From assembly GCF_030813915.1 (NCBI RefSeq), contig NZ_JAUSUJ010000002.1, forward strand, positions 186,001 through 250,000: a stretch of 64,000 nt of DNA, written 5' to 3'. Positions within the stretch are counted from its first letter, which is position 1. Every line of letters starts with the position of its first letter. This DNA is from Rhodoplanes tepidamans (GTDB lineage: Bacteria > Pseudomonadota > Alphaproteobacteria > Rhizobiales > Xanthobacteraceae). The translations under genes were made by a program, and so were the position numbers. The notes under the pieces were generated by a model that worked only from the letters and a program-made list of their open reading frames with translations, was not told where the DNA came from and made no database searches. Positions 1,183 through 18,552 of the stretch are shown here, piece after piece.

Positions 1183-1599
1183 TCACAGATGCATGACGCC
1201 GAGGCCGATCCGCTCGTGATTGGTGAGCTGGTGCATGGCGGAATCGCCGTAGGCGGCGATCGCCACCCACTTGCCGTCGGAGACGATCGCCACCTTGATC
1301 TTCAGGCTCGAGCTGTCGACGACCGCGTTCGTCAGCCCGTGCCACGCCTCCAGCCCGGCGTGGATCACCGCGTGGATGGCGCCGGCCCGCTCCTGGACGG
1401 TGTCGGCCTTGAGCGCGGCGCCGATCAGCGAGCGGACGAACACCCGCTCGATGTCGCCCTTGCGGCCGCTGACATAGGTCACGGTCAGCCTGACCCGGTG
1501 GTCCGCGGCGACCTGCTCCTTGATCCTGATTTCCTCGTCGTCGCTCGACATGGCCGCGATCATGGCCAGCTTGCCGATGCGGTTGGTGGCGATGTCCAT
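1183..1599 (-). CDS. HutP-family RNA-binding regulator, divergent from the malonate decarboxylase operon
   Basis: A 138-residue protein. The start at 1599 has a clear ribosome site (GAGGTGATT just upstream); the longer open frame reaching 3024 is antisense to mdcB and unlikely. In Bacillus, HutP binds histidine and Mg2+ and then binds NAG triplets in the hut leader RNA to prevent termination. The match is in the C-terminal half: IHAVIHAGLEAWHG (75-88) corresponds to Bacillus HALYHATMEALHG. GKWVAIAAYG (109-118) and the tail NHERIGLGVMHL (127-138) correspond to DWIAVSLYG and EHETFGVGINHI. The metal-ligand histidines (73, 77, 138 in Bacillus, from memory) fall on H76, H80 and H128, all kept. No hut genes are in view; the divergent neighbour is a malonate decarboxylase operon. 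The family is fairly certain, the target and ligand are inferred. Confidence 0.82.
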   Translation of the reverse strand: MDIATNRIGKLAMIAAMSSDDEEIRIKEQVAADHRVRLTVTYVSGRKGDIERVFVRSLIGAALKADTVQERAGAIHAVIHAGLEAWHGLTNAVVDSSSLKIKVAIVSDGKWVAIAAYGDSAMHQLTNHERIGLGVMHL

Positions 1600-2076
1600 G
1601 GAATCACCTCGGGACCGGGGGAACGGGGCGCCGTGTCCCGCGCCGGCGTCGAAGTCGAGAGATACCGCAGTGCCTCCCCACGTTGAAGCGGTCTTCGTTC
1701 TGATCATTTCCGCTGTGCGTTTTCGGAGGGGCTCCGCCGAACGTCCTGACAAATCAGGACCATCCCGAGCCCGGCATCCGGGATTCTGCTTGCATGGATG
1801 TCGATTGACACGGCCGGCGGGCGAGAACACAGTCGCGCCGCCTGAGACGGTGTGGCCGCCGTCGCCGGGCACGCGAGACGGAAGCGATCGGCCACAAGTC
1901 TCCCCGGGCCCCCGCGTCCCTGGACGCGAGAGCCGGTCCGGTTCCCACCGAGTGAACACGCGACCTTCGTGACGGTGCATCTCCAGCAGTGACGTGCCTC
2001 GGGCACGCCGCGCTGCGCCTCGTGCCGCGTCCGGCGACGATCTCGTCCGGGCCTGCCACGGCGCAGGAGTGTCGTC
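1600..2076. other. Intergenic region between the HutP-family gene and the mad operon
   Basis: 477 bp with no convincing gene; the open frames crossing it lack ribosome sites and family-like sequence. It should hold the divergent promoters. Visible items are a perfect hairpin at 1743-1760, a related half-site GTTCTGATCA at 1697-1706, and TTGACA at 1805-1810 without a good -10 partner. I looked for regularly spaced NAG triplets of the kind HutP binds and saw only pairs at chance frequency, and no canonical T-run terminator. Confidence 0.6.
1743..1760. promoter_or_regulatory. Perfect inverted repeat, candidate operator or leader hairpin
   Basis: GTCCTGA and TCAGGAC flank a CAAA spacer, giving 7 perfect pairs. 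It is 144 bp upstream of the HutP-family start and 317 bp upstream of mdcB, so it may be an operator for either gene or a hairpin in the HutP leader. Function is inferred from position only. Confidence 0.4.
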
Positions 2077-3051
2077 GTGGGTTGCTCTCCCGCCTTTTCG
2101 GAAACGCCCCTGGTTCCCGCGCTTCTCGATGCCGCCGCCTGGCGCGTCGGGTCGGCGGCGCTGACGGGCCTTCTCCTCGAGGTCTGCTCCCACCCGAAAC
2201 CCGGGCTGGTGACGCCGCTCTCGATGGGGTCGCACGCGGACATGGACGTCCGCACCTTCATGCTGTCGTCGGCGGCGATCGCGCCGTGCCTGTTCCAGTG
2301 CGCGGCGCTGGGCCGCTCGCACCGCGGCGCGCCCGCCGATCTGCTTCCCGCCGTCCGCGCCGTCGGACGCGATCACGACGCCGCGCTGCTCGCCGCGACG
2401 AACGGCGTCAACACCCAGCGCGGCGCGCTGTTCTGCGCCGGCCTGCTCGCCGCCGCCGCGGGCTGCCTGAGCCGCGAGACCGACGCGCTGCCGGCCGAGA
2501 ACGTGCTGAGGACGGTCGGCGAGATCACCGAAGGCCTGTGCGACCGCGAGCTGCGCGGCCGCACTGGCGAGCCGCGTACCGCCGGCGAGATTCTGTTCCG
2601 CCGCCACGGCGTGCTCGGCATCCGCGGCGAGGTCGAGGCCGGCTTCCCGAGCGTGCTCGACTGCGGCCTGCCGGCGCTGCGCACCGCGCTCGCCGCCGGC
2701 CACGGCCTCAACCGGGCGCTCGTCCACGCGCTCGTCGCGCTGATCGCGGTGGCCGAGGACACCACGGTGATGTGGCGCGGCGGCCCGGAGGCGCTCGCCT
2801 TCGTGCGCGCCGAAGCCCGCCACGTGATGGATCTCGGCGGTGCGCTCACGCCGGAGGGCGTCGATGCCGTCCGCCGCTTCGACGCCGCCTGCGTCGCGCG
2901 GCGGGTGAGCCCCGGCGGCTCGGCGGATCTGCTGTCCGTCACGGTCGGCGCGCATCTCGTCGAGCACCGCGTCTTTCCCGAGACCGCCACCCGCGGCTTC
3001 TGCCTCGACGGCGACCGACACCACCCGAAACCCGATGGAGACCGACGATGA
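2077..3051 (+). CDS. mdcB: Triphosphoribosyl-dephospho-CoA synthase (malonate decarboxylase cofactor synthesis)
   Basis: 324 residues, GTG start with AGGAG seven bases upstream. The CitG/MdcB family makes 2'-(5''-triphosphoribosyl)-3'-dephospho-CoA from ATP and dephospho-CoA, the precursor of the prosthetic group carried by the acyl carrier subunit. The signature near residues 29-60 (LEVCSHPKPGLVTPLSMGSH, then ADMDVRTFMLSS) and VNTQRGALFCAGLL near 110-123 are typical of the family. Length is normal. It is the first gene of the mad operon and its stop overlaps the start of the next ORF (ATGA at 3048-3051). In Malonomonas rubra I recall the corresponding position being called madG. Confidence 0.88.
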   Translation: MGCSPAFSETPLVPALLDAAAWRVGSAALTGLLLEVCSHPKPGLVTPLSMGSHADMDVRTFMLSSAAIAPCLFQCAALGRSHRGAPADLLPAVRAVGRDHDAALLAATNGVNTQRGALFCAGLLAAAAGCLSRETDALPAENVLRTVGEITEGLCDRELRGRTGEPRTAGEILFRRHGVLGIRGEVEAGFPSVLDCGLPALRTALAAGHGLNRALVHALVALIAVAEDTTVMWRGGPEALAFVRAEARHVMDLGGALTPEGVDAVRRFDAACVARRVSPGGSADLLSVTVGAHLVEHRVFPETATRGFCLDGDRHHPKPDGDRR

Positions 3052-3164
3052 ACGTCATCGTTTACACGCTGGCCGCCTACGCGATCACCGCGGTGATCTC
3101 GTACGCCGTGATCGGCGTGATCGTGCTGCTGAACAAGGCGCTGAATCGGGGCGAGGGGGCGTGA
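3048..3164 (+). CDS. 38-residue single-pass membrane protein, possible accessory subunit of the decarboxylase
   Basis: A short ORF translationally coupled to mdcB by an ATGA overlap. It encodes one hydrophobic segment (about residues 3-29, VIVYTLAAYAITAVISYAVI and following) and a short charged tail ending NRGEGA. Related Na+-pumping decarboxylases have a small membrane gamma subunit (OadG, about 80 residues) that joins the carboxyltransferase to the beta subunit. This ORF lies directly before the beta-subunit gene and could play a similar part, but it is shorter and I do not recognise a family. Being real is supported by the coupling, the coherent membrane segment and the position. Confidence 0.62.
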   Translation: MNVIVYTLAAYAITAVISYAVIGVIVLLNKALNRGEGA

Positions 3165-3218: not shown

Positions 3219-4433
3219 ATGTTGGAGCAACTCTTCGCGGTCTTCCCGGGCATCGCCACGATGTTCGTCCAGGACCCGGTCATCGCGGTGACGCGGGTGG
3301 CGCTGATCGGCATGGGCTTCGGCCTCGCCTATCTCGGCTTCAAGCGCACCCTCGAGCCGCTGATCATGGTGCCGATGGGCGTCGCCATGATGTGCGTGAA
3401 CGCCGGCGTGATGTTCCTCGAGGGCCAGAAGATCGGCACCTTGATGCTGTCGCCGCTGATCGCCGACCCGGCCGAGCTCGTCAACGCGATGCAGGTCTAC
3501 TTCCTGCAGCCGATCTACAACTTCACCTTCTCGAACTCGCTCGTCGCCTGCATGCTGTTCTTCGGCATCGGCTCGATGTCGGACATCACCTTCATCCTGG
3601 CGCGTCCGTGGGCCTCGATCACGATCGCGATCTTCGCCGAGCTCGGCACCTTCGTGACCCTGGTGATCGGCTACTATTGCGGCCTCACGCCGGGCCAGGC
3701 CGCCGCGGTCGGCTCGATCGGCGGCGCCGACGGCCCGATGGTGCTGTTCGCCTCGCTGGTGATGGCCAAGGACCTCTTCGTCCCGATCTCGATCATCGCC
3801 TATCTGTACCTGTCGCTGACCTATGCGGGCTATCCCTACCTGATCAAGCTCCTGGTCCCGGCCAAGTATCGCGGCGCCGAGATCGAGATGGAGTTCCCGG
3901 AGGTCACCCAGAAGTCGAAGTTCATCTTCACCATCGTGGCCGCCGCGCTGCTCTGTCTGCTGCTGCCGGTCGCCGCGCCGCTGATCCTCTCCTTCTTCCT
4001 CGGCGTCGCCATCAAGGAGGCCGAGATCGAGCCCTACCAGGAGCTCCTGGAGAAGACCATCACCTACATGTCGACGCTGATCCTCGGCCTGGTGCTCGGC
4101 ATCCTGTGCGAGGCCTCGACGCTGCTCGACGTGCGCGTCCTGCTGCTGCTCGTCCTCGGCATGACGGCGCTCCTGTTCTCCGGCATCGGCGGTCTCGCCG
4201 GCGGCTGGCTGATCTGGGCGCTGTCGCGCGGCAACTTCAACCCGGTGGTCGGCATCGCCGGCGTGTCCTGCGTGCCCACCACGGCGAAGATCGCCCAGAA
4301 GATCGTCGGCGAGTCCAACCCGTACGCCATGATCCTGCCGGTCGCCATGGGCGCCAACATCTGCGGCCTGATCGTCTCGGCGATCGCCGTCGGCGTGTTC
4401 GCCTCGACGATCGGCCTGGTGGCCGGTCACTGA
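3219..4433 (+). CDS. madB: Carboxybiotin decarboxylase, membrane beta subunit of biotin-dependent malonate decarboxylase
   Basis: 404 residues, start preceded by CAAGGACAATACG. The OadB/GcdB/MmdB/MadB family decarboxylates carboxybiotin in the membrane and couples this to Na+ export. The hallmark GGADGP with the ion-binding Asp is at 168-173 (D171), and the second conserved region MGANICG is at 377-383, followed by a membrane helix (LIVSAIAVGVFAS). Many hydrophobic segments agree with the usual 9 or so helices, and length is normal. Surrounding genes for carrier protein, carboxyltransferase and a biotin carrier make malonate the substrate rather than oxaloacetate or methylmalonate. Ion specificity is inferred from the family. 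Confidence 0.92.
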   Translation: MLEQLFAVFPGIATMFVQDPVIAVTRVALIGMGFGLAYLGFKRTLEPLIMVPMGVAMMCVNAGVMFLEGQKIGTLMLSPLIADPAELVNAMQVYFLQPIYNFTFSNSLVACMLFFGIGSMSDITFILARPWASITIAIFAELGTFVTLVIGYYCGLTPGQAAAVGSIGGADGPMVLFASLVMAKDLFVPISIIAYLYLSLTYAGYPYLIKLLVPAKYRGAEIEMEFPEVTQKSKFIFTIVAAALLCLLLPVAAPLILSFFLGVAIKEAEIEPYQELLEKTITYMSTLILGLVLGILCEASTLLDVRVLLLLVLGMTALLFSGIGGLAGGWLIWALSRGNFNPVVGIAGVSCVPTTAKIAQKIVGESNPYAMILPVAMGANICGLIVSAIAVGVFASTIGLVAGH

Positions 4434-4451: not shown

Positions 4452-5285
4452 GTGCACGCCCCGGCTCACCACAGGCTCGTCGCGCCGCTCGGCTCGGCCG
4501 ATCACGCGGACCGCAGGATCGGTCACACCGTCCTGCGCATCCCGGTCGCCGACTCGACGAACGCGATGCTGATCGAGCTGGGGCGCGGCGGCGCGACCGA
4601 CGGCACCGTCCTGGTCGCCGACGAGCAGGTGGCGGGCCGCGGCAAGGGCGAGCGCACGTGGTTCTCGAGTCGCGACGAGAGCCTGTGCGTCTCGTTCCTG
4701 CTGCGCCGCTCGTCGCGGCGCGACCTCGGCCAGGCGACGCTCCTCGCCGCGGTCGCGCTGCACGACGCGGTGACGCGCCTCGGCGTCGCCGCCTCGATCA
4801 AGTGGCCGAACGACATCCTGGTCGGCGACCGCAAGGTCTGCGGCATCCTGGCCGAGGCGGCGCCGGCGGCCGACGGCGAGATCGACTTCGTCGTGGTCGG
4901 CTTCGGCCTCAACGTGGCGATCGCGCCGGAGAGCTTTCCGCCGGCACTGCACGACACCGCGACGTCGCTGCAGCAGGCGGCCGGCCGGCCGCTCGACTGC
5001 GGCTCGGTTCTCGACGTCTGCCTCGCGGCGCTGTCGGACTGGGTCGCGATCTGGGAGGAGCACGGCTTCGCGCCGGTCGCCGAGGCGTGGCGCCGGCGGG
5101 CGGGCACGCTCGGCCGCCGGGTCGTGGTCGCCGATGCCGGCACGCCGCTCGCCGGCACGGCGGTCGCGCTCGCCGCCGACGGCGCCCTCGTCCTGCGCGA
5201 CGACGCCGGGCGGGAGCATCACATCCACTCCGGAGACATCTGTCACGGGCGGGCGCCGGTCGGGCGGCCCGGGCCGCGCGGGTGA
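4452..5285 (+). CDS. birA: Biotin--protein ligase without DNA-binding domain
   Basis: 277 residues from a GTG with GGAAGGG eight bases upstream. The enzyme activates biotin with ATP and attaches it to a carrier-protein lysine. Family motifs are GRGKGERTW (62-70, the biotinyl-AMP loop, usually GRGRxGRxW), KWPNDI (117-122) and GDRKVCGIL (126-132), then a small C-terminal domain. There is no N-terminal helix-turn-helix, so this is a monofunctional ligase. It sits between madB and madA with short spacers (18 and 23 bp), so it most likely biotinylates MadF (11084-11293). A dedicated ligase inside the operon is unusual. A second, housekeeping ligase is likely elsewhere, but that cannot be seen here. 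Confidence 0.9.
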   Translation: MHAPAHHRLVAPLGSADHADRRIGHTVLRIPVADSTNAMLIELGRGGATDGTVLVADEQVAGRGKGERTWFSSRDESLCVSFLLRRSSRRDLGQATLLAAVALHDAVTRLGVAASIKWPNDILVGDRKVCGILAEAAPAADGEIDFVVVGFGLNVAIAPESFPPALHDTATSLQQAAGRPLDCGSVLDVCLAALSDWVAIWEEHGFAPVAEAWRRRAGTLGRRVVVADAGTPLAGTAVALAADGALVLRDDAGREHHIHSGDICHGRAPVGRPGPRG

Positions 5286-5308: not shown

Positions 5309-6973
5309 ATGAAAGCCGAACGTCAATGGAACACGCTGGAGCGTGACACGGCGCAGCGAATGGAAGCCGCCGCACGCTTCATCGGTCCGGGCAAGCAGGT
5401 GAAGGTCGAGGACGTCGTGCCGCTGCTCGAGGCGGTGGTGCGGCCCGGCGACAAGGTCAACGTCGAGGGCAACAACCAGAAGCAGGCCGACTTCCTGGCC
5501 GAGGCGCTGTGCAAGGTCGACCCGGCGAAGATCCACGACCTGCACATGGTGCAGTCGTCGGTGCCGCTCGCCGCCCATCTCGACGTGTTCGAGAAGGGCA
5601 TCGCCAAGAAGCTCGACTTCGCCTTCGGCGGCCCGCAGTCCGGCCGCGTCGCCAAGTTCATCCGCGAGGGCAAGCTCGAGCTCGGCGCCATCCACACCTA
5701 CCTCGAGCTGTTCGGCCGCTACTGCCTCGACCTGACGCCGCGCGTCTCGCTGATCTGCGCCTACGAGGCCGACCGCGAGGGCAACCTCTACACGGGCTTC
5801 AACACCGAGGACACGCCGGTCATCGTCGAGGCGACCAAGTTCCGCAAGGGCATCGTCATCGCCCAGGTGAACAAGATCGTCGACAAGCTGCCGCGCGTCG
5901 ACATCCCGGCCGACTGGATCGACGCGGTCGTGCAGTCGCCGAAGCCGTTCTTCATCGAGCCGCTGTTCACCCGCGATCCCGGTCTCGTCACCGAGCGCCA
6001 CATCCTGCTCGCCATGATGTGCCTGAAGGGCATCTACGGCGAGTACGGCGTGAAGCGGATCAATCACGGCATCGGCTTCCTCACCTCGGCGATCGAGCTC
6101 TTGCTGCCGACCTACGGCGAGGAGCTCGGCCTCAAGGGCAAGACCTGCACCCAGATGGTGCTGAACCCGCACCCGACCATGATCCCGGCGATCGAGTCGG
6201 GCTGGGTCGAGGCGATCTACTGCTTCGGCGGCGAGCTCGGCATGGAGGACTACGTCCGGGCCCGCTCCGACGTGTTCTTCACCGGTCCGGACGGCTCGCT
6301 GCGCTCGAACCGCGCCCTCGCCCAGACGGCCGGCCACTACGCCCTCGACATGTTCATCGGCTCGACGCTGCAGATCGACCAGTACGGCAACTCGTCGACC
6401 GCGACCGCCAACCGCGTCGCCGGCTTCGGCGGCGCGCCGAACATGGGCTGCGATGCCAAGGGCCGGCGTCACTCGACCGACTCGTGGCTCAAGTGCGGCC
6501 GCGAGGTGCCGAGCATGAACGAGCTGATCGGCGACATGCCGCGCGGCAAGCGTCTCGTCGTGCAGGGCATGGAGACGTTCGGCGAGGGCCGTGCCCCCGC
6601 CTTCGTCGACAGGCTCGACGCCTGGAAGCTCGCCGAGAACGCCAAGCTCGATCTGCCGCCCGTGATGATCTACGGCGACGACGTCACCCACCTCGTCACC
6701 GAGGAGGGCATCGCCTACCTCAACCGCTGCGCCAATCTCGACACCCGCATGGCGGCGATCCGCGCGGTCGCCGGCTACACCGAGATCGGCCTGCGGGCGA
6801 AGCCCGAGGAGACGAAGCGGCTGCGTGACGACGGCATCGTCAAGACGCCCGAGGATCTCGGCATCGACCCCGACACCGCCACCCGCGACCGGCTCGCAGC
6901 GCGCAACATGCGCGACCTCGTCGACTGGTCGGGCGGCCTCTACAACCCGCCCGCCCGTTTCCGGAACTGGTGA
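5309..6973 (+). CDS. madA: Malonate decarboxylase alpha subunit (acetyl-S-ACP:malonate ACP transferase)
   Basis: 554 residues; the ATG at 5309 is preceded by AAGGGGG. It exchanges acetyl for malonyl on the acyl carrier subunit, giving malonyl-S-ACP and free acetate. The sequence is characteristic of MdcA/MadA, a CoA-transferase-like family of about 550 residues. Visible landmarks are NVEGNNQKQADFLAEAL, CTQMVLNPHPTMIPAIESG and FGGELGMEDYVRARSD, then GNSSTATANRVAGFGGAPNMG. Its stop overlaps a GTG that could open madE, but a better madE start lies 18 bases later. Confidence 0.93.
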   Translation: MKAERQWNTLERDTAQRMEAAARFIGPGKQVKVEDVVPLLEAVVRPGDKVNVEGNNQKQADFLAEALCKVDPAKIHDLHMVQSSVPLAAHLDVFEKGIAKKLDFAFGGPQSGRVAKFIREGKLELGAIHTYLELFGRYCLDLTPRVSLICAYEADREGNLYTGFNTEDTPVIVEATKFRKGIVIAQVNKIVDKLPRVDIPADWIDAVVQSPKPFFIEPLFTRDPGLVTERHILLAMMCLKGIYGEYGVKRINHGIGFLTSAIELLLPTYGEELGLKGKTCTQMVLNPHPTMIPAIESGWVEAIYCFGGELGMEDYVRARSDVFFTGPDGSLRSNRALAQTAGHYALDMFIGSTLQIDQYGNSSTATANRVAGFGGAPNMGCDAKGRRHSTDSWLKCGREVPSMNELIGDMPRGKRLVVQGMETFGEGRAPAFVDRLDAWKLAENAKLDLPPVMIYGDDVTHLVTEEGIAYLNRCANLDTRMAAIRAVAGYTEIGLRAKPEETKRLRDDGIVKTPEDLGIDPDTATRDRLAARNMRDLVDWSGGLYNPPARFRNW

Positions 6974-6990
6974 GCCACGGAGATACGACG

Positions 6991-7305
6991 ATGGCCCTCA
7001 ACACTCTCGAATTCGACTGCAAGGCCGAGGCCGCCTCGGTGCGGCTGGCGGCGCCCGTGCACTACGGCGTGGTCGGCTCCGGCGACCTGGAGGTGATCCT
7101 GGAGCCGTGCGACCTCGGAGGCGGCGTCAAGGTCAAGGTCACGACGCCGATCTCCGGCTTCGACGCGGTGTGGCGCAAGGTCGTCGAGACCTTCGTCAAC
7201 CGCGCCAGGCTCGCCGACGTCGCCATCGACATCAACGACAACAACGCCTCGCCGGCCGTGGTCTCCATGCGCCTGCAGCAGGCGCTCGCCGAAACCGCGG
7301 CGTGA
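6991..7305 (+). CDS. madE: Malonate decarboxylase acyl carrier protein (delta subunit)
   Basis: 104 residues. The ATG at 6991 has GGAG eight bases upstream and is preferred over the GTG at 6970. This carrier holds acetyl or malonyl groups on a phosphoribosyl-dephospho-CoA arm. The MdcC/MadE signature HYGVVGSGDLEVILEP is present, and the serine in VVGSGD (S30) is the expected attachment site. It lies between the transferase (madA) and carboxyltransferase (madC) genes, as in other malonate decarboxylase operons. The prosthetic group would be supplied by the mdcB product and attached by the MdcG-like protein at 10323-11081. Confidence 0.92.
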   Translation: MALNTLEFDCKAEAASVRLAAPVHYGVVGSGDLEVILEPCDLGGGVKVKVTTPISGFDAVWRKVVETFVNRARLADVAIDINDNNASPAVVSMRLQQALAETAA

Positions 7306-7323: not shown

Positions 7324-8280
7324 ATGCCGAACTGGAGCAAACTTCAGACCCGCAGCTTCCTCGAGTCCAGCGCGCGCGAGCGCGCCCTCGGGCTCGTCGA
7401 CGAGGGCACCTTCACCGAGCTCGCCGGTCCGTTCGACCGGATGTCGAGCCCGCATCTCGTCGCCCTCGGCGAGGCCGTCGAGTTCGACGACGGCGTCGTC
7501 ACCGGCGTCGGCCGGATCGGCAAGCGACCGGTCTTCGTGATCTCGCAGGAAGGCCGCTTCATCGGCGGCGCGGTCGGCGAGGTCGGCGGCGCCAAGATGG
7601 TGACGACGATCGATCTCGCCGTCGCCTTCGCCGAGGAGCTGCGCGCCGCCAACCCGAAGATCGCGGCCGACGAGCTGCCCCTGGTGGCGATCTCGTTTGA
7701 GACCGGCGGCGTGCGCCTGCACGAGTCGAACGCCGGCCTGCTCGCCCATGCCGAGGTGATGGACGCCTTCCAGCGCGCCCGCGGCAAGGTGCCGGTGGTC
7801 GCGCTGATCGGCTCGCGCATCGGCTGCTTCGGCGGCATGGGCTTCGTCGCCGCCGCGACCGACGTGATCGTGATGAGCGAGTTCGGCCGCCTGGGCCTCA
7901 CCGGGCCGGAGGTGATCGAGGAGGAGATGGGCAAGGACGAGTTCGATGCGTCCAACCGCGCGCTCGTCTATCGCACCACCGGCGGCCGCCACAAGTACAT
8001 CATGGGCGACTGCAACTTCCTGGTCGACGACCGCGTCGCCGCGTTCCGGGCCCAGGTCGCGGAGCTGTGCAGGCTGCCGGTCGCCGACTTCGAGCAGTTC
8101 CGTCGCATCGGCTCGGCCGCGCTGGTCGAGAAGCAGATGCGCCTCGTCGCGCTCGCCGCCGAGATGCAGCCCAAGGACGCCTACGACGTGTGGCGCCGCG
8201 CCGGCAACAACGATCCGGCCGGGCTCGGCGACGCGCCCGTCGACGACTTCCGCAAGCAGGCGCAGCGGCTCTCGGTCTGA
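7324..8280 (+). CDS. madC: Malonyl-ACP:biotin carboxyltransferase subunit (beta/MdcD-like)
   Basis: 318 residues, start 18 bases after madE with GGAGGA upstream. With MadD it forms the carboxyltransferase that takes the carboxyl group from malonyl-S-ACP; in the biotin-dependent system the acceptor is biotin on MadF. It has a crotonase/carboxyltransferase fold. Residues 1-60 (MPNWSKLQTRSFLESSARER, then LVDEGTFTELAGPFDRMSSP) match MdcD/MadC, and GSRIGCFGGMGFVAAATDVIVM (about 160-181) is the conserved oxyanion region. Length is as expected. Confidence 0.92.
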   Translation: MPNWSKLQTRSFLESSARERALGLVDEGTFTELAGPFDRMSSPHLVALGEAVEFDDGVVTGVGRIGKRPVFVISQEGRFIGGAVGEVGGAKMVTTIDLAVAFAEELRAANPKIAADELPLVAISFETGGVRLHESNAGLLAHAEVMDAFQRARGKVPVVALIGSRIGCFGGMGFVAAATDVIVMSEFGRLGLTGPEVIEEEMGKDEFDASNRALVYRTTGGRHKYIMGDCNFLVDDRVAAFRAQVAELCRLPVADFEQFRRIGSAALVEKQMRLVALAAEMQPKDAYDVWRRAGNNDPAGLGDAPVDDFRKQAQRLSV

Positions 8281-8313
8281 GCCCGCGCCGCGCAGAGAAG
8301 ATTGGAGATCACC

Positions 8314-9192
8314 ATGGACACCCTGATCGGGCAAGGACTGGTCGCCCTCGAGATGATCGTCGATCCCGGCTCCTTCCAGCGCGACCGTGTCGGCGCCAAG
8401 GAGTTCACCGACGAGAGCTACGGCCCCGGCGCCGTGGTCGGCACCGCGACGCTGGACGGCCAGACCGTGACGGTCATCGCCTCCGACGCCGAGGCGTTCA
8501 ACGAGAAGTTCCCGGTCGTCTATGCCGGCATCATCGGCATGGAGGAGGGATACAAGATGGCGTCCGCCGTCTACGCGACCCTCGCGGCCGACGTCGACAA
8601 GCCGGCCGCCCAGAAGCGGCCGCTGGTGCTGATCGTCGACACGCCCGGGAACGGCCCCGGCAAGGTCGAGGAGATCTTCGGCATGAACAAGGCGACGGGC
8701 GCCTATCAGCTCGCCCTCGCCGAGGCCCGCATGGCCGGGCACCCGATCGTCGCCGCCGTCGTCGGCCGCGCCATCTCGGGCGCCTTCCTGTGCCACGGTC
8801 TGCAGGCCGACCGCATCGTCGCGCTCGACGCCAAGTTCGGCACCATGATCCACGTGATGCCGCTCACCAGCGTGTCGCGCATCATCAAGAAGAACATCGA
8901 GGTGCTGGAGGAGCTCTCCAAGAGCAACCCGGTGTTCGCCGCCGGCCCGCAGTTCTTCTATCAGCTCGGCGGCGTCGAGGCGCTGGTGCCGGAGATCGAA
9001 GGCCTGCGCGGCGCGGTGATCGAGCAGGTCGCCGCGCTGCGCGCCGCCAAGGCGAAGGGCGAGGCGACCGGCCCGGTCGGCCGGGCCGCGCTCGGCGCCG
9101 CCCGCGGCGGCCGGGTCACCCGACCGCAGGTCGCGGCCAGGATGACGGCGGAGTTCGCCGCCGTCGCCGACAAGTACCGGCCGCACGCCTGA
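8314..9192 (+). CDS. madD: Malonyl-ACP:biotin carboxyltransferase subunit (gamma/MdcE-like)
   Basis: 292 residues from the ATG at 8314, which has GGAG six bases upstream; a TTG at 8302 lies within the ribosome site. It is the partner of MadC. Typical features are LVLIVDTPGNGPGKVEEIFG (the region resembling the carboxyltransferase beta domain of acyl-CoA carboxylases), then VVGRAISGAFLCHGLQADRI and FGTMIHVMPLTSVSRI. Spacer from madC is 33 bp. Order A-E-C-D is what I recall for the Malonomonas mad operon. Confidence 0.92.
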   Translation: MDTLIGQGLVALEMIVDPGSFQRDRVGAKEFTDESYGPGAVVGTATLDGQTVTVIASDAEAFNEKFPVVYAGIIGMEEGYKMASAVYATLAADVDKPAAQKRPLVLIVDTPGNGPGKVEEIFGMNKATGAYQLALAEARMAGHPIVAAVVGRAISGAFLCHGLQADRIVALDAKFGTMIHVMPLTSVSRIIKKNIEVLEELSKSNPVFAAGPQFFYQLGGVEALVPEIEGLRGAVIEQVAALRAAKAKGEATGPVGRAALGAARGGRVTRPQVAARMTAEFAAVADKYRPHA

Positions 9193-9216: not shown

Positions 9217-10326
9217 ATGTCCGACGCGCTCGACGATCTCGAAGAGATGGCGTCCGCCTTCGCCACGGTTCCGTCGCTGGCCGAGATGCCGCGCCGGACC
9301 CTGGCCGACAAGGGCATCGCGGGGCCGACGGCGGCCCACGTGGTCGAGGAGGTGCACACCCCCCTCAACCTCGCCTACGTGACCTTCACGACCGGATCGT
9401 CGGCGTTCCAGAACATCGTCGGCGTGACGTTCAGCGAGATCGAGGGACGCTGCGCCGTCGCGCGCCGCGTCTTCGACACCGTCGGCGCGACGGCCGGGCA
9501 GCGGATGCTGGTCACGTATCCGCCGCTCGTGAACGTGTTCTCGCGGGAGGGGCTGCAGCGCTCCGGGATCGACTGGTTCTTCCTGGAGCGCTCCAGCCGC
9601 GAGGCGTTCATCGTCGCGCTGTGCCGGCAGCGGCCGGCCCTGGTGCTCGGGGAGTCGTCATTCATCCGCGCCAGCCTGGAAGAGGCCTCCAGGCTCGGTC
9701 TCGCGGACCGGCTCCCCGAGCGTCTCGTCGTCATGGTGGCGGGCACGCCGCTCGACCTCGACCTGCTGCCGGTCGCCGAGCGCCATGGATACGCCGTGCA
9801 CGATCTCTACGGCTGCCAGGAGTTCGGCTGGCTCACCCTCGACGGCGTGCCGCTGCGCGACGACGTCGGCCTGGTCGCGTCGCCGGCCGGCGCCGGCTGG
9901 CGCGAGCTCGTCTGCGGCGGCCTGCCGACCGCCGACAGCTTCCCCTATGCGGAGAGCGGCCACGTCTGCAACCCGCAGGGCCGCATCATCACCTATCGCC
10001 GGCGGCGCACGCATCCCGAATACGAGGTGCTGGTGCGCCGCACCCCGCACGTCGCCGAGACGGTGGACCGGGCCGCCCGCACCATCCTGCGCATCAAGGG
10101 ACGCGTCGTGAAGGTGCCGCCCGGCCTCGTCACCGGCGCGGCCGCGACCGAGCTCGAGCTGGTGCCGAGCCTGCCCGCCGCCGCGGGCGGGTCCGCCGAC
10201 GGCGCCGCGGCGCCGGTGCGCATCGTCGGCCCGGTGGCGACGCGGCTCTTCGACGACCTGGTGCAGGCCCAGATCGACCTGCAGGCGACCGCCAAGACCG
10301 ATCCGGCCTGGCGCAAGACCCGATGA
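9217..10326 (+). CDS. madH: Acetate:deacetyl-ACP ligase of malonate decarboxylase (adenylate-forming family)
   Basis: 369 residues, GGAGG upstream. MadH re-acetylates the free thiol of the carrier protein with acetate and ATP so that the enzyme can begin cycling. The protein looks like an atypical AMP-binding enzyme of the phenylacetyl-CoA-ligase type: VTFTTGSSAFQNIVG (55-69) resembles the P-loop motif, YGCQEFGW (about 199-206) the second core motif, and a C-terminal part with RTILRIKGRVVKVPPGLV. It is shorter than usual CoA ligases (about 430). Position after madD and before the prosthetic-group transferase supports MadH. The exact reaction is inferred from the operon. Confidence 0.78.
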   Translation: MSDALDDLEEMASAFATVPSLAEMPRRTLADKGIAGPTAAHVVEEVHTPLNLAYVTFTTGSSAFQNIVGVTFSEIEGRCAVARRVFDTVGATAGQRMLVTYPPLVNVFSREGLQRSGIDWFFLERSSREAFIVALCRQRPALVLGESSFIRASLEEASRLGLADRLPERLVVMVAGTPLDLDLLPVAERHGYAVHDLYGCQEFGWLTLDGVPLRDDVGLVASPAGAGWRELVCGGLPTADSFPYAESGHVCNPQGRIITYRRRRTHPEYEVLVRRTPHVAETVDRAARTILRIKGRVVKVPPGLVTGAAATELELVPSLPAAAGGSADGAAAPVRIVGPVATRLFDDLVQAQIDLQATAKTDPAWRKTR

Positions 10327-11359: not shown

Positions 11360-11779
11360 ATGGTCATCTACGGGGTTATGATTCTCGGTCTCTGCATGTT
11401 CCTGGGCACGGCGGTCGGCCTGCTCCTGGGCAAGCTGCTCGGAATCCCCGGCGACATCGGCGGCGTCGGCTTCGCCATGCTGTTCCTGGTGTTCCTGACG
11501 AACTGGCTCAAGGGCAAGGGCATGCTGCCCAAGCCGACCGAGCAGGGCATGCTGTTCTGGAACGCGATGTACATCCCGGTCGTCATCGCGATGGCGTCGA
11601 TCCAGAACGTCGTCGCCGCGCTCAACGGCGGCTTGGTCGCGCTGCTCGCCGGCATCGTGTCGGTGGTGGTTCTGTTCCCGCTCATCCGCATCCTCTCCGC
11701 CATGGCGGGCGCCGCGACCTCGTCGTTCGGCGACGAGGAGGCGGACGCGCCGGCCGGCGCGCAGCCGAAGAAGGCCTGA
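11360..11779 (+). CDS. madL: Malonate transporter subunit MadL
   Basis: 139 residues with about four hydrophobic segments, GGGGG upstream of the ATG. MadL and MadM together form a malonate transporter, thought to be Na+-dependent. The N-terminus (MVIYGVMILGLCMFLGTAVG, then LLLGKLLGIPGDIGGVGFAM) is characteristic. The protein ends in a charged, alanine-rich tail. It is followed directly by madM with a 10-bp spacer. Confidence 0.9.
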   Translation: MVIYGVMILGLCMFLGTAVGLLLGKLLGIPGDIGGVGFAMLFLVFLTNWLKGKGMLPKPTEQGMLFWNAMYIPVVIAMASIQNVVAALNGGLVALLAGIVSVVVLFPLIRILSAMAGAATSSFGDEEADAPAGAQPKKA

Positions 11780-11789
11780 GGACCGCATC

Positions 11790-12563
11790 ATGGACCAGAC
11801 CTACGCTTTCCTGATGGAGCTGGTGAAGCCGCGGGCGCTCATCTTCTCCTTTGTCTTCGTCGGTGCGCTGACCTGGCTTTGCTACCAGTTCTCCACCAAG
11901 ATCACCCGCGGCCGGGTGCACGGCTCCGCCGTCGCCATCGTGGTCGGGCTGATTCTCGCCTTCGTCGGCGGCATGCTGACCAACGGCAAGCGCGGCATCG
12001 CCGACATCCCGATGTTCGCCGGCTTCGCTCTGATGGGCGGCGCCATGCTGCGCGACTTCTGCATCATCGCGACCGCCTACGGCGTTCGCATGGAGGAGCT
12101 GAAGAAGGCCGGCCTCGCCGGGGTGCTGTCGCTCGTCGTCGGCACCTTCGTGGCCTTCGTGGTCGGTGTCGTCATCGCCTACGCGTTCGGCTACCGCGGT
12201 ACCGTCGACCTCACCACGATCGGGGCCGGCGCCGTGACCTTCATCGTCGGCCCGGTCACCGGCTCGGCCCTCGGAGCGAGCTCCGACATCGTCGCGCTGT
12301 CGATCGCCGCCGGCGTGGTCAAGTCGATCGCCGTGATGATCCTGACGCCGTTCCTGGCCAAGCCGTTCGGCCTGACCAACCCGGCGGCCGCCATGGTCTA
12401 TGGCGGCCTGATGGGCACGACCAGCGGCACCGCGGCCGGTCTCGCCGCCACCGACCCCCGCCTGGTGCCCTACGGCGCCCTGACGGCGACCTTCTATACG
12501 GGTTTCGGCTGTCTCGTCTGCCCGTCGATCTGCTATATCATCATGCGGATGATCTTCGGATGA
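11790..12563 (+). CDS. madM: Malonate transporter subunit MadM
   Basis: 257 residues, mostly hydrophobic with about seven or eight membrane segments. It partners MadL in malonate uptake. The central region FVGGMLTNGKRGIADIPMFA and the C-terminal AMVYGGLMGTTSGTAAGLAA are family-like, and length agrees with the roughly 250 residues usual for MadM. It is the last of the genes whose order (mdcB/G, B, A, E, C, D, H, K, F, L, M) matches the Malonomonas scheme. Confidence 0.9.
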   Translation: MDQTYAFLMELVKPRALIFSFVFVGALTWLCYQFSTKITRGRVHGSAVAIVVGLILAFVGGMLTNGKRGIADIPMFAGFALMGGAMLRDFCIIATAYGVRMEELKKAGLAGVLSLVVGTFVAFVVGVVIAYAFGYRGTVDLTTIGAGAVTFIVGPVTGSALGASSDIVALSIAAGVVKSIAVMILTPFLAKPFGLTNPAAAMVYGGLMGTTSGTAAGLAATDPRLVPYGALTATFYTGFGCLVCPSICYIIMRMIFG

Positions 12564-18049: not shown

Positions 18050-18552
18050 CCGCCGGCGATCCGGCGGGCCAGCGCGGCGGCGCCGCTGGTCACGTCGGCC
18101 CAGGTGATCTCGAATCCGTCGTCGCCGCCGTAATAGGGATCGGCGACGCCCTCGCCGGCGCGGCCGTCGACATAGTCGAGCAGCAGCTTGACCTCGGCCG
18201 GGGCGCCGCGCGGGCGCAGCCGGTGCAGCGTGACGAGGACCGACTCGTCGAGGGCGACCACGTGGGTGAACCGGGAAAAGTCGTCGCGGGTGACCTGGCG
18301 GGCACGGCAGTGGCCGATCTCGACGCCGTAGCGGCGCGCCACCGCCTGGGCGCGGCGGTCGGGCGGCTCGCCGACATGCCAGCTCCCGGTCCCGGCCGAA
18401 TCGATCTCGACGGCGAGGCCGATGCGCTCCGCCTCGGCCCGGAACGCCGCTTCGGCGAGCGGCGAGCGACAGATGTTGCCGAGGCAGACGAACAGGACGG
18501 CGGGCTTTTCGGGCGACACGGGACGACCTTCGATCGGTTCCGGAGGGGCCAT
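18046..18552 (-). CDS. Low-molecular-weight protein-tyrosine phosphatase
   Basis: 168 residues. The P-loop CLGNICRS is at 23-30 (nucleophile C23, R29), and the general-acid motif DPYYGG lies near 137-142; SAGTGSWHVGEPPDRRA is the usual second conserved stretch. It may act on protein phosphotyrosine or on small phosphate esters such as fructosamine phosphates, given its overlapping fructosamine-kinase partner. An N-terminal extension of about 16 residues precedes the conserved fold, so the true start could be slightly downstream. Confidence 0.92.
   Translation of the reverse strand: MAPPEPIEGRPVSPEKPAVLFVCLGNICRSPLAEAAFRAEAERIGLAVEIDSAGTGSWHVGEPPDRRAQAVARRYGVEIGHCRARQVTRDDFSRFTHVVALDESVLVTLHRLRPRGAPAEVKLLLDYVDGRAGEGVADPYYGGDDGFEITWADVTSGAAALARRIAGG

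Follow-up and report, generated by a model that had tools for sequence, protein, structure and literature searches.

The stretch of DNA analysed here (the window) comprises 64,000 nucleotides of the genome of Rhodoplanes tepidamans; close to its beginning, an open reading frame on the minus strand, with an ATG start codon and 138 residues, encodes a relative of HutP. HutP is the L-histidine- and Mg2+-dependent antiterminator of histidine utilisation (hut) in Bacillus: it senses a metabolite together with a metal and then holds single-stranded RNA, and its described function is that at one operon in Bacillus. Membership of the HutP family, proposed in the initial annotation of the window, is borne out by the profile PF09021, which matches the protein at 105.7 bits against a cut-off of 25 (E 2.7e-30). 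The same annotation had confined the resemblance to Bacillus HutP to the C-terminal half of the protein; the resemblance stands and the restriction falls, since the match runs over residues 8-136 and profile positions 1-128 of 128, so that the whole protein aligns. In phmmer searches of PDB sequences with the window protein as query, the HutP entry 4ok9 is found at E 1.3e-8 and B. subtilis HutP at about 4e-5. The AlphaFold model of the monomer (pLDDT 93.9, pTM 0.89) has 11 PDB matches with E <=0.001, all of them HutP (E 5.0e-9 to 8.1e-8; TM by query length 0.72-0.81). Histidines 76, 80 and 128, which had been assigned to the places of the metal ligands, align with H73, H77 and H138 of B. subtilis HutP, which we take to be the metal ligands of that protein. 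The window gene is confirmed as a genuine, full-length HutP-family gene, and the 6.86-Mb genome has no second HutP match; the closest named relative of the protein, in Rhodoplanes elegans, is 87% identical. With the hut-type equivalog model NF002838 (NCBIfam), the protein scores 40.7 bits and misses the cut-off of 155; it is thus of the HutP family, but not of the hut type. All 38 rows of set A7 match PF09021 at E 0.001, and a search of viral contigs gave no relative.

The operon divergent from this gene is that of a Na+-pumping, biotin-dependent malonate decarboxylase (mad; Table 1). A divergent operon for malonate decarboxylation had already been described from the letters of the window; curated models now name mdcB, madB, the biotin ligase, mdcC, mdcD, mdcE, madL and madM within it. 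On the operon side, hutP is flanked by mad genes, in line with the earlier remark that no hut genes lie nearby, the other side being judged from the list of open reading frames only. The conserved MadH-like mad protein has no NCBIfam match at E 0.1 and no Pfam match at E 1. Directly 5' of madB, short hydrophobic open reading frames are present in 17 of the 17 mad loci checked in Alphaproteobacteria, Negativicutes and Klebsiella, with lengths of 37-49 aa among the ten counted; the microprotein matches no Pfam or NCBIfam family above cut-off and is not among the gene-table entries shown for Rhodobacter capsulatus and Klebsiella, such tables being incomplete by nature. It is possibly a small subunit of the Na+ pump.

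Table 1. Features of the window around hutP and the mad operon, with two riboswitches in Negativicutes mad leaders (last two lines; coordinates of the loci named).
Feature	Position	Strand	Basis or remark
HutP-family regulator, mad type	1183..1599	-	138 aa; metal triad H76, H80, H128; R130 new
Candidate mad leader promoter	1805..1833	+	TTGACA, 17 nt, CACAGT; weak -10; by eye; R. elegans similar
Upstream hairpin with two GCGA repeats	1850..1896	+	Candidate first cluster, weak in this genome
Conserved leader element, candidate HutP site	1945..1978	+	CACC/GGTG stem closing three GYG triplets
Element triplets	GTG 1952-1954, GCG 1960-1962, GTG 1969-1971	+	
mdcB, first large mad gene (start codon tentative)	2077..3051	+	TIGR03132, 298.1 bits, cut-off 282.35
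38-aa hydrophobic microprotein, conserved directly 5' of madB	3048..3164	+	No known family
madB, carboxybiotin decarboxylase Na+ pump	3219..4433	+	TIGR03136, 758.9 bits, cut-off 596.9
Biotin-protein ligase	4452..5285	+	TIGR00121
mdcA (coordinates of the query stretch, start approximate)	5342..6973	+	tblastn to mad loci; same-place R. capsulatus gene annotated mdcA
mdcC, acyl carrier protein	6970..7305	+	TIGR03130
mdcD	7324..8280	+	TIGR03133
mdcE	8302..9192	+	TIGR03134
MadH-like protein	9217..10326	+	Same-place R. capsulatus gene annotated AMP-binding protein
madL, malonate transporter subunit	11360..11779	+	TIGR00807
madM, malonate transporter subunit	11790..12563	+	TIGR00808
Cobalamin riboswitch	L130 10737-10876	-	RF00174
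Cobalamin riboswitch	L092 10052-10192	-	RF00174

The neighbourhood of hutP and mad genes recurs in other Alphaproteobacteria. Among 100 related genomes, HutP is found above cut-off in four and MadB in the same four; these include the genome of the window itself, known beforehand, and a second Rhodoplanes, so that the cases are not independent of each other. MdcD reaches its cut-off in six of the 100, namely these four and two more (G028 and G050) in which there is no MadB at E 1e-60 and no HutP. HutP thus accompanies MadB and is absent from the genomes that have MdcD without MadB; it tracks the Na+-pump type rather than malonate decarboxylation as such. Five more of the 100 relatives carry MadB-like matches below cut-off and no HutP, with no mdc genes within the short flanks fetched. 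Across 289 genomes of the class, HutP attains the cut-off in one and MadB in one, both being the genome of the window; sub-threshold matches, three HutP-like and one MadB-like, were set aside. Peptide patterns of four proteins, scanned against the GTDB species genomes, gave 18 HutP loci, 17 of them with mad genes near and the 18th on a contig of 7.5 kb; the genera are Rhodoplanes, Rhodobacter, Azospirillum, Roseospira, Breoghania, Afifella and Rhodobium and, in another phylum, Phascolarctobacterium. As the alphaproteobacterial loci of this series (L015-L032) were found through HutP, their linkage with mad is a biased count. The position of hutP varies: it is divergent from the operon in Rhodoplanes, downstream of it in Azospirillum and G054, inside it in Negativicutes, and in Rhodobacter and others upstream and co-directional with it at a gap of about 0.5 to 1.2 kb. 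The orthologue of Rhodobacter capsulatus SB 1003, RCAP_RS18130, carries the annotation 'HutP family protein' and lies just ahead of the mad operon.

Outside the Alphaproteobacteria, HutP is frequent in Negativicutes, in several contexts beyond mad: a HutP match is present in 109 of 200 genomes, in 106 of them above cut-off, and a MadB above cut-off in 17. Twelve of these 17 MadB genes sit in operons with mdcA, C, D and E, and HutP lies in or at the operon in all 12; three of the genomes (G112, G113 and G115) were met first through HutP, so that the unbiased count is nine of nine. Four Negativicutes loci (L029, L032, L127 and L128) have two copies of hutP at the mad operon. A consistent association of HutP homologues with mad or mdc genes, which mattered to the initial annotation, is therefore what was found, and it holds in two phyla. 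The other five MadB matches were candidates for mad operons without HutP; for four, this was rejected as tblastn found no mdcA, C, D or E in 11-18 kb of surroundings, and the fifth has none of these genes either, on a contig of only 8.2 kb. MadB-like Na+ pump genes without mdc neighbours were also seen at G000:C3 48600-49787 (L014, L135), L009-L013 and L131-L134, below cut-off in Rhodoplanes and its relatives and above it in Negativicutes; these are likely pumps for another acid. In Klebsiella (L147 607-1038, CP125156.1), a HutP-family gene follows madM, next to a LysR gene. This HutP has lost the metal triad, and the mad leader of Klebsiella has no terminator and no GWGA-N4-GWGA; the protein is possibly decaying or changed in function.

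The leader RNA of the alphaproteobacterial mad operons contains a short conserved element (Table 1) that the initial annotation had not pointed out. It lies between hutP and mdcB in the window, about 100 nt 5' of the likely mdcB start, and roughly 100-300 nt before mdcB in the class. A stem of CRCC with GGYG closing three G-pyrimidine-G triplets is present in 16 of the 16 alphaproteobacterial mad leaders examined, the pattern having been written after viewing the same leaders, of which at least three are near-duplicates. When 13 leaders are aligned with MAFFT, 14 columns are invariant, and 10 of these fall within the element. Over 15 rows, pairing in the five-pair stem amounts to 96%; three of its pairs are constant and two vary, the outer pair being open in three rows. 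Cells with a double change in the stem number 10 against 3.7 in shuffled alignments, none of 500 shuffles reaching as high. When the two Rhodoplanes rows are withheld from training, the resulting covariance model (R2) ranks the site in the window first in its own 6.86-Mb genome, at 29.2 bits with the next at 22.1; with an E-value no better than 0.2, and full scoring of 150 among the 5188 first-look candidates, it is the rank and place of the site that carry the weight. R2 also finds the held-out leader of Azospirillum at 32.2 bits, in a place 167-199 nt ahead of the first match to mdcB, and misses that of R. elegans, where all three triplets are GCG (no match at E 10; 6.9 bits, at noise level, when scored directly); two of three held-out sites were thus found. 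In 295 Rhodobacteraceae genomes, with only 23 candidates scored per genome, R2 matches only in its own training genome, G100; the scan thus produced neither a false positive nor a further held-out case.

The 34-nt element was sought in the other groups as well: model R1 finds none in the Negativicutes loci or Klebsiella L055, and R2 none in Klebsiella L147. What the mad leaders of the two phyla have in common is only the triplet spacing. Free-RNA folding of three alphaproteobacterial leaders favours the closing stem in none of the three, and holding the element open or not has no consistent effect on the ribosome site in the three leaders modelled: its mean probability of being unpaired is 0.13 to 0.25 in the window, 0.50 to 0.52 in R. 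capsulatus and 0.38 to 0.38 in Azospirillum, the last computed with the tblastn start rather than the true start codon. A promoter scan of the window leader listed none, the candidate of Table 1 included. The leader element is probably the docking site of the HutP-type protein.

The triplets themselves are spaced regularly in both phyla. A passage of PMC8934654 describes a triplet-repeat RNA target of B. subtilis HutP at hut, and like arrays occur in the mad leaders. With near-duplicates (L020, L023 and L091) and Klebsiella left out of the GWGA and period counts, and L023 also out of alignment A4, the pattern GWGA-N4-GWGA matches 16 times in nine of ten Negativicutes mad leaders and 17 times in ten of 13 alphaproteobacterial ones, against 0 and 0 in the antisense controls and a mean of about 0.5 (maximum 3) in shuffles. 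A spacer of 4 is the peak in both sets of leaders, a spacer of 2 coming second in Negativicutes (12 matches). At least two such pairs are present in nine of 16 alphaproteobacterial mad leaders; the leaders of the window, L015 and L016 have no strict GWGA pair, and the element in the window has GCG as its middle triplet. In terms of period, GWG triplets recur every 8 nt in the alphaproteobacterial mad leaders (34 against 11.3 shuffled, z 6.3), in the Negativicutes mad leaders (35 against 6.0, z 12.2) and around the hutP genes that lie in a CoA-transferase context (32 against 6.5, z 10.1), and periods 6 and 10 are also raised in both Negativicutes sets (z 5.0-8.1). As a positive control, hut operons around hutP show DAG at period 7 (49 against 27.6, z 4.2; period-7 triples 16 against 1.9) and, in the same analysis, no period 8. 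The sets differ in extent, operon leaders having been used for mad, and 300 nt before plus 160 nt after hutP for hut and CoA-transferase. Since the sequences within a set are related, the z-values overstate independence; the agreement of two phyla and the hut control are stronger points. The repeats of the mad leaders (GWG, period 8) thus differ from those of the hut leaders, which are NAG with 4-nt spacers at period 7.

The relation of these repeats to transcription terminators separates the two phyla. In Negativicutes, a scan finds an intrinsic terminator in ten of ten mad leaders (shuffle means 0.07-0.32), and at 11 of the 17 terminators, in eight of the ten leaders, the 5' arm is overlapped by a GWGA-N4-GWGA pair; repeats lying over the 5' arms of terminators are the layout of hut antitermination. 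Whereas an intrinsic terminator belongs to the hut layout, no good one was found in the alphaproteobacterial mad leaders: the scan gives one in 16, 471 nt before mdcB and directly after hutP, and none in the window, where a weak five-pair terminator at 1770-1782 lies ahead of the candidate promoter. The controlled step in the class of the window thus need not be an intrinsic terminator. Other RNA elements were noticed in Negativicutes: cobalamin riboswitches (RF00174, above gathering score) adjoin HutP-type repeats in two mad leaders (Table 1), and locus L125 has a T-box leader that follows madM at 18062-18285 (+) and exceeds the gathering score with 116.6 bits, as well as, immediately ahead of the mad leader at 7438-7589 (+), a weak T-box match of 32.4 bits that falls short of that score.

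This raises the question as to what binds the leader. The element resembles a compact structured RNA, and it is present in the mad leader even where hutP lies at the opposite end of the operon, as in Azospirillum; it could thus be bound by something else, such as a riboswitch ligand, Rho or a small RNA, with HutP acting elsewhere. Rfam, however, has no match in the leader: for the first 16 kb of the window at E <=1 it gives two matches (E 0.48 and 0.92), which lie elsewhere and do not reach the gathering scores, and two more alphaproteobacterial loci yield nothing at E 0.1. The same triplet period, moreover, is found in Negativicutes in both the mad and the CoA-transferase contexts, alongside closely related HutPs, and the hut leaders show the period 7 of HutP in the same analysis. 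We consider another binder unlikely.

The ligand pocket was compared in a residue table of 94 of 132 HutP rows plus B. subtilis HutP; the 38 rows not used are for the most part repeat entries of genes already present, together with L023, L031 (a broken fragment) and L152. In 16 rows of hut-type HutPs, the residues Y69, R70, H73, H77, E81, R88, H138 and E139 (B. subtilis numbering) are invariant. Y69, R70 and R88, the last presumably with a role in histidine binding, are lost in the mad rows, a change that the initial annotation had not noted; the window protein has A72, G73 and N91 instead. E81 and E139 are mostly kept. Of 33 rows, 32 from mad loci and one without an assigned context, all but two retain the metal triad (31), the exceptions being Klebsiella and L136. 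An arginine (R130), located in the last strand two residues past the third metal histidine, is present in 96% of the mad rows and absent in the hut rows, and the mad-type proteins are without the inserts of about four and about nine residues found in B. subtilis HutP. The loss of Y69, R70 and R88 and the gain of R130, with the triad kept, argue against histidine and fit a metal-chelating dicarboxylate such as malonate: a metal on the three histidines next to an arginine would suit a ligand of this kind. From these residues, the ligand is probably malonate together with a metal.

An RNA regulator of mad that still senses L-histidine and metal, as a general amino-acid or nitrogen signal, would account for the retention of the metal histidines in nearly all rows, as well as of E84 and E129 in most; the replacement of three residues that are 100% conserved in hut rows, the arginine found in the mad rows instead, and the want of any plain link between histidine and the use of malonate make this reading rather improbable. 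That hutP is a hitchhiker of the mad cluster, linked to it by common transfer and without a role in its control, is very improbable: its varying place (downstream in Azospirillum and G054, divergent in the window) might suggest as much, but the linkage is kept in two phyla despite changing order and orientation, some operons have two hutP copies, and the leaders carry matching RNA repeats.

According to the initial annotation, expression of mad may be controlled by a HutP relative at the RNA level, in response to the same ligand as HutP or to another one; the profile match, the consistent link with mad and the triplet arrays of the mad leaders support this proposal. The best reading, on the fold, the linkage and the RNA repeats taken together, is that the window protein would be an RNA regulator of the HutP type dedicated to mad, with malonate and a metal as the most likely ligand; we hold it to be likely, with a confidence lowered slightly because the R. 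elegans site was missed. In such a mechanism, H76, H80 and H128 would bind a divalent metal and with it the ligand, most likely malonate, to which R130 would add a contact. The loaded protein would then recognise the G-N-G triplets that recur every 8 nt in the leader RNA of mad, and its binding would turn the operon on. In Negativicutes, where the triplets overlap the 5' arms of terminators, bound HutP would block terminator formation, as HutP does at hut; in Alphaproteobacteria, where they sit in the loop of a short conserved stem with no U-tract terminator, it may act on Rho access, RNA folding or ribosome access.

In comparison, B. subtilis HutP and the window protein share the fold, the three metal histidines and a place beside a catabolic operon, that of histidine (hut) in the former and of malonate (mad) in the latter; the marks of the hut type (the NF002838 score, Y69/R70/R88, NAG at period 7 and hut neighbours) are missing in the window. 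To our knowledge, no HutP regulation has been described in the phylum of the window. LysR-type or other DNA-binding regulators of mdc operons serve the same kind of pathway, malonate decarboxylation, but bind DNA rather than RNA.

The HutP family also includes types associated with other pathways. In a tree of 95 rows, the mad and CoA-transferase types lie on one side of a branch with support 97/93 and the hut types form a group with 100/98, several long branches leaving the finer joins unsure. Ten HutP relatives in Negativicutes (L106, L108, L110-L112, L114 and L116-L119) lie beside a family III CoA-transferase gene; they have the pocket residues and the GWG period 8 in common with the mad type and differ from it in the operon. 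Models of succinate-glutarate, mesaconate and oxalate CoA-transferases all match these enzymes below their cut-offs. At these loci, GAG/GTG triplets at period 8 were seen around hutP, with terminator-like hairpins, found by eye, between the two genes. A large group of Negativicutes HutPs (L057-L089 and L105) is without the metal triad: a gene resembling a Na+/solute symporter directly precedes hutP in 18 of the 30 best-scoring loci, in Phascolarctobacterium the symporter-like gene is followed by an L-serine dehydratase (sdaAB/sdaAA), and one genome has three copies next to genes that best match, though below cut-off, tyrosine decarboxylase and a tyrosine/tyramine antiporter. HutP may thus be a broad family of metabolite-responsive RNA regulators in which the pocket and the RNA code change together. 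Its members would be the hut type (histidine, NAG, period 7), the mad type (malonate, GNG, period 8), with the window protein as a malonate sensor, the CoA-transferase type (another dicarboxylate, GNG, period 8) and triad-less types, associated with a Na+ symporter and serine dehydratase or with a tyrosine-decarboxylase-like gene and antiporter; we give this wider picture about an even chance.

The open-access literature searched, with most subscription papers outside its scope, gave no account of HutP with malonate or of a 'HutP family', and none of how the operon of a Na+-pumping malonate decarboxylase is controlled, leader antitermination or riboswitch included. If true, the reading preferred here would explain the mode of control of this operon, and a natural malonate sensor could serve metabolic engineering. 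HutP would then be a family with a readable protein-RNA code, in which two classes of leader, of period 7 and period 8, are matched to two classes of protein; this suggests a family of HutP switches wider than its one textbook case.
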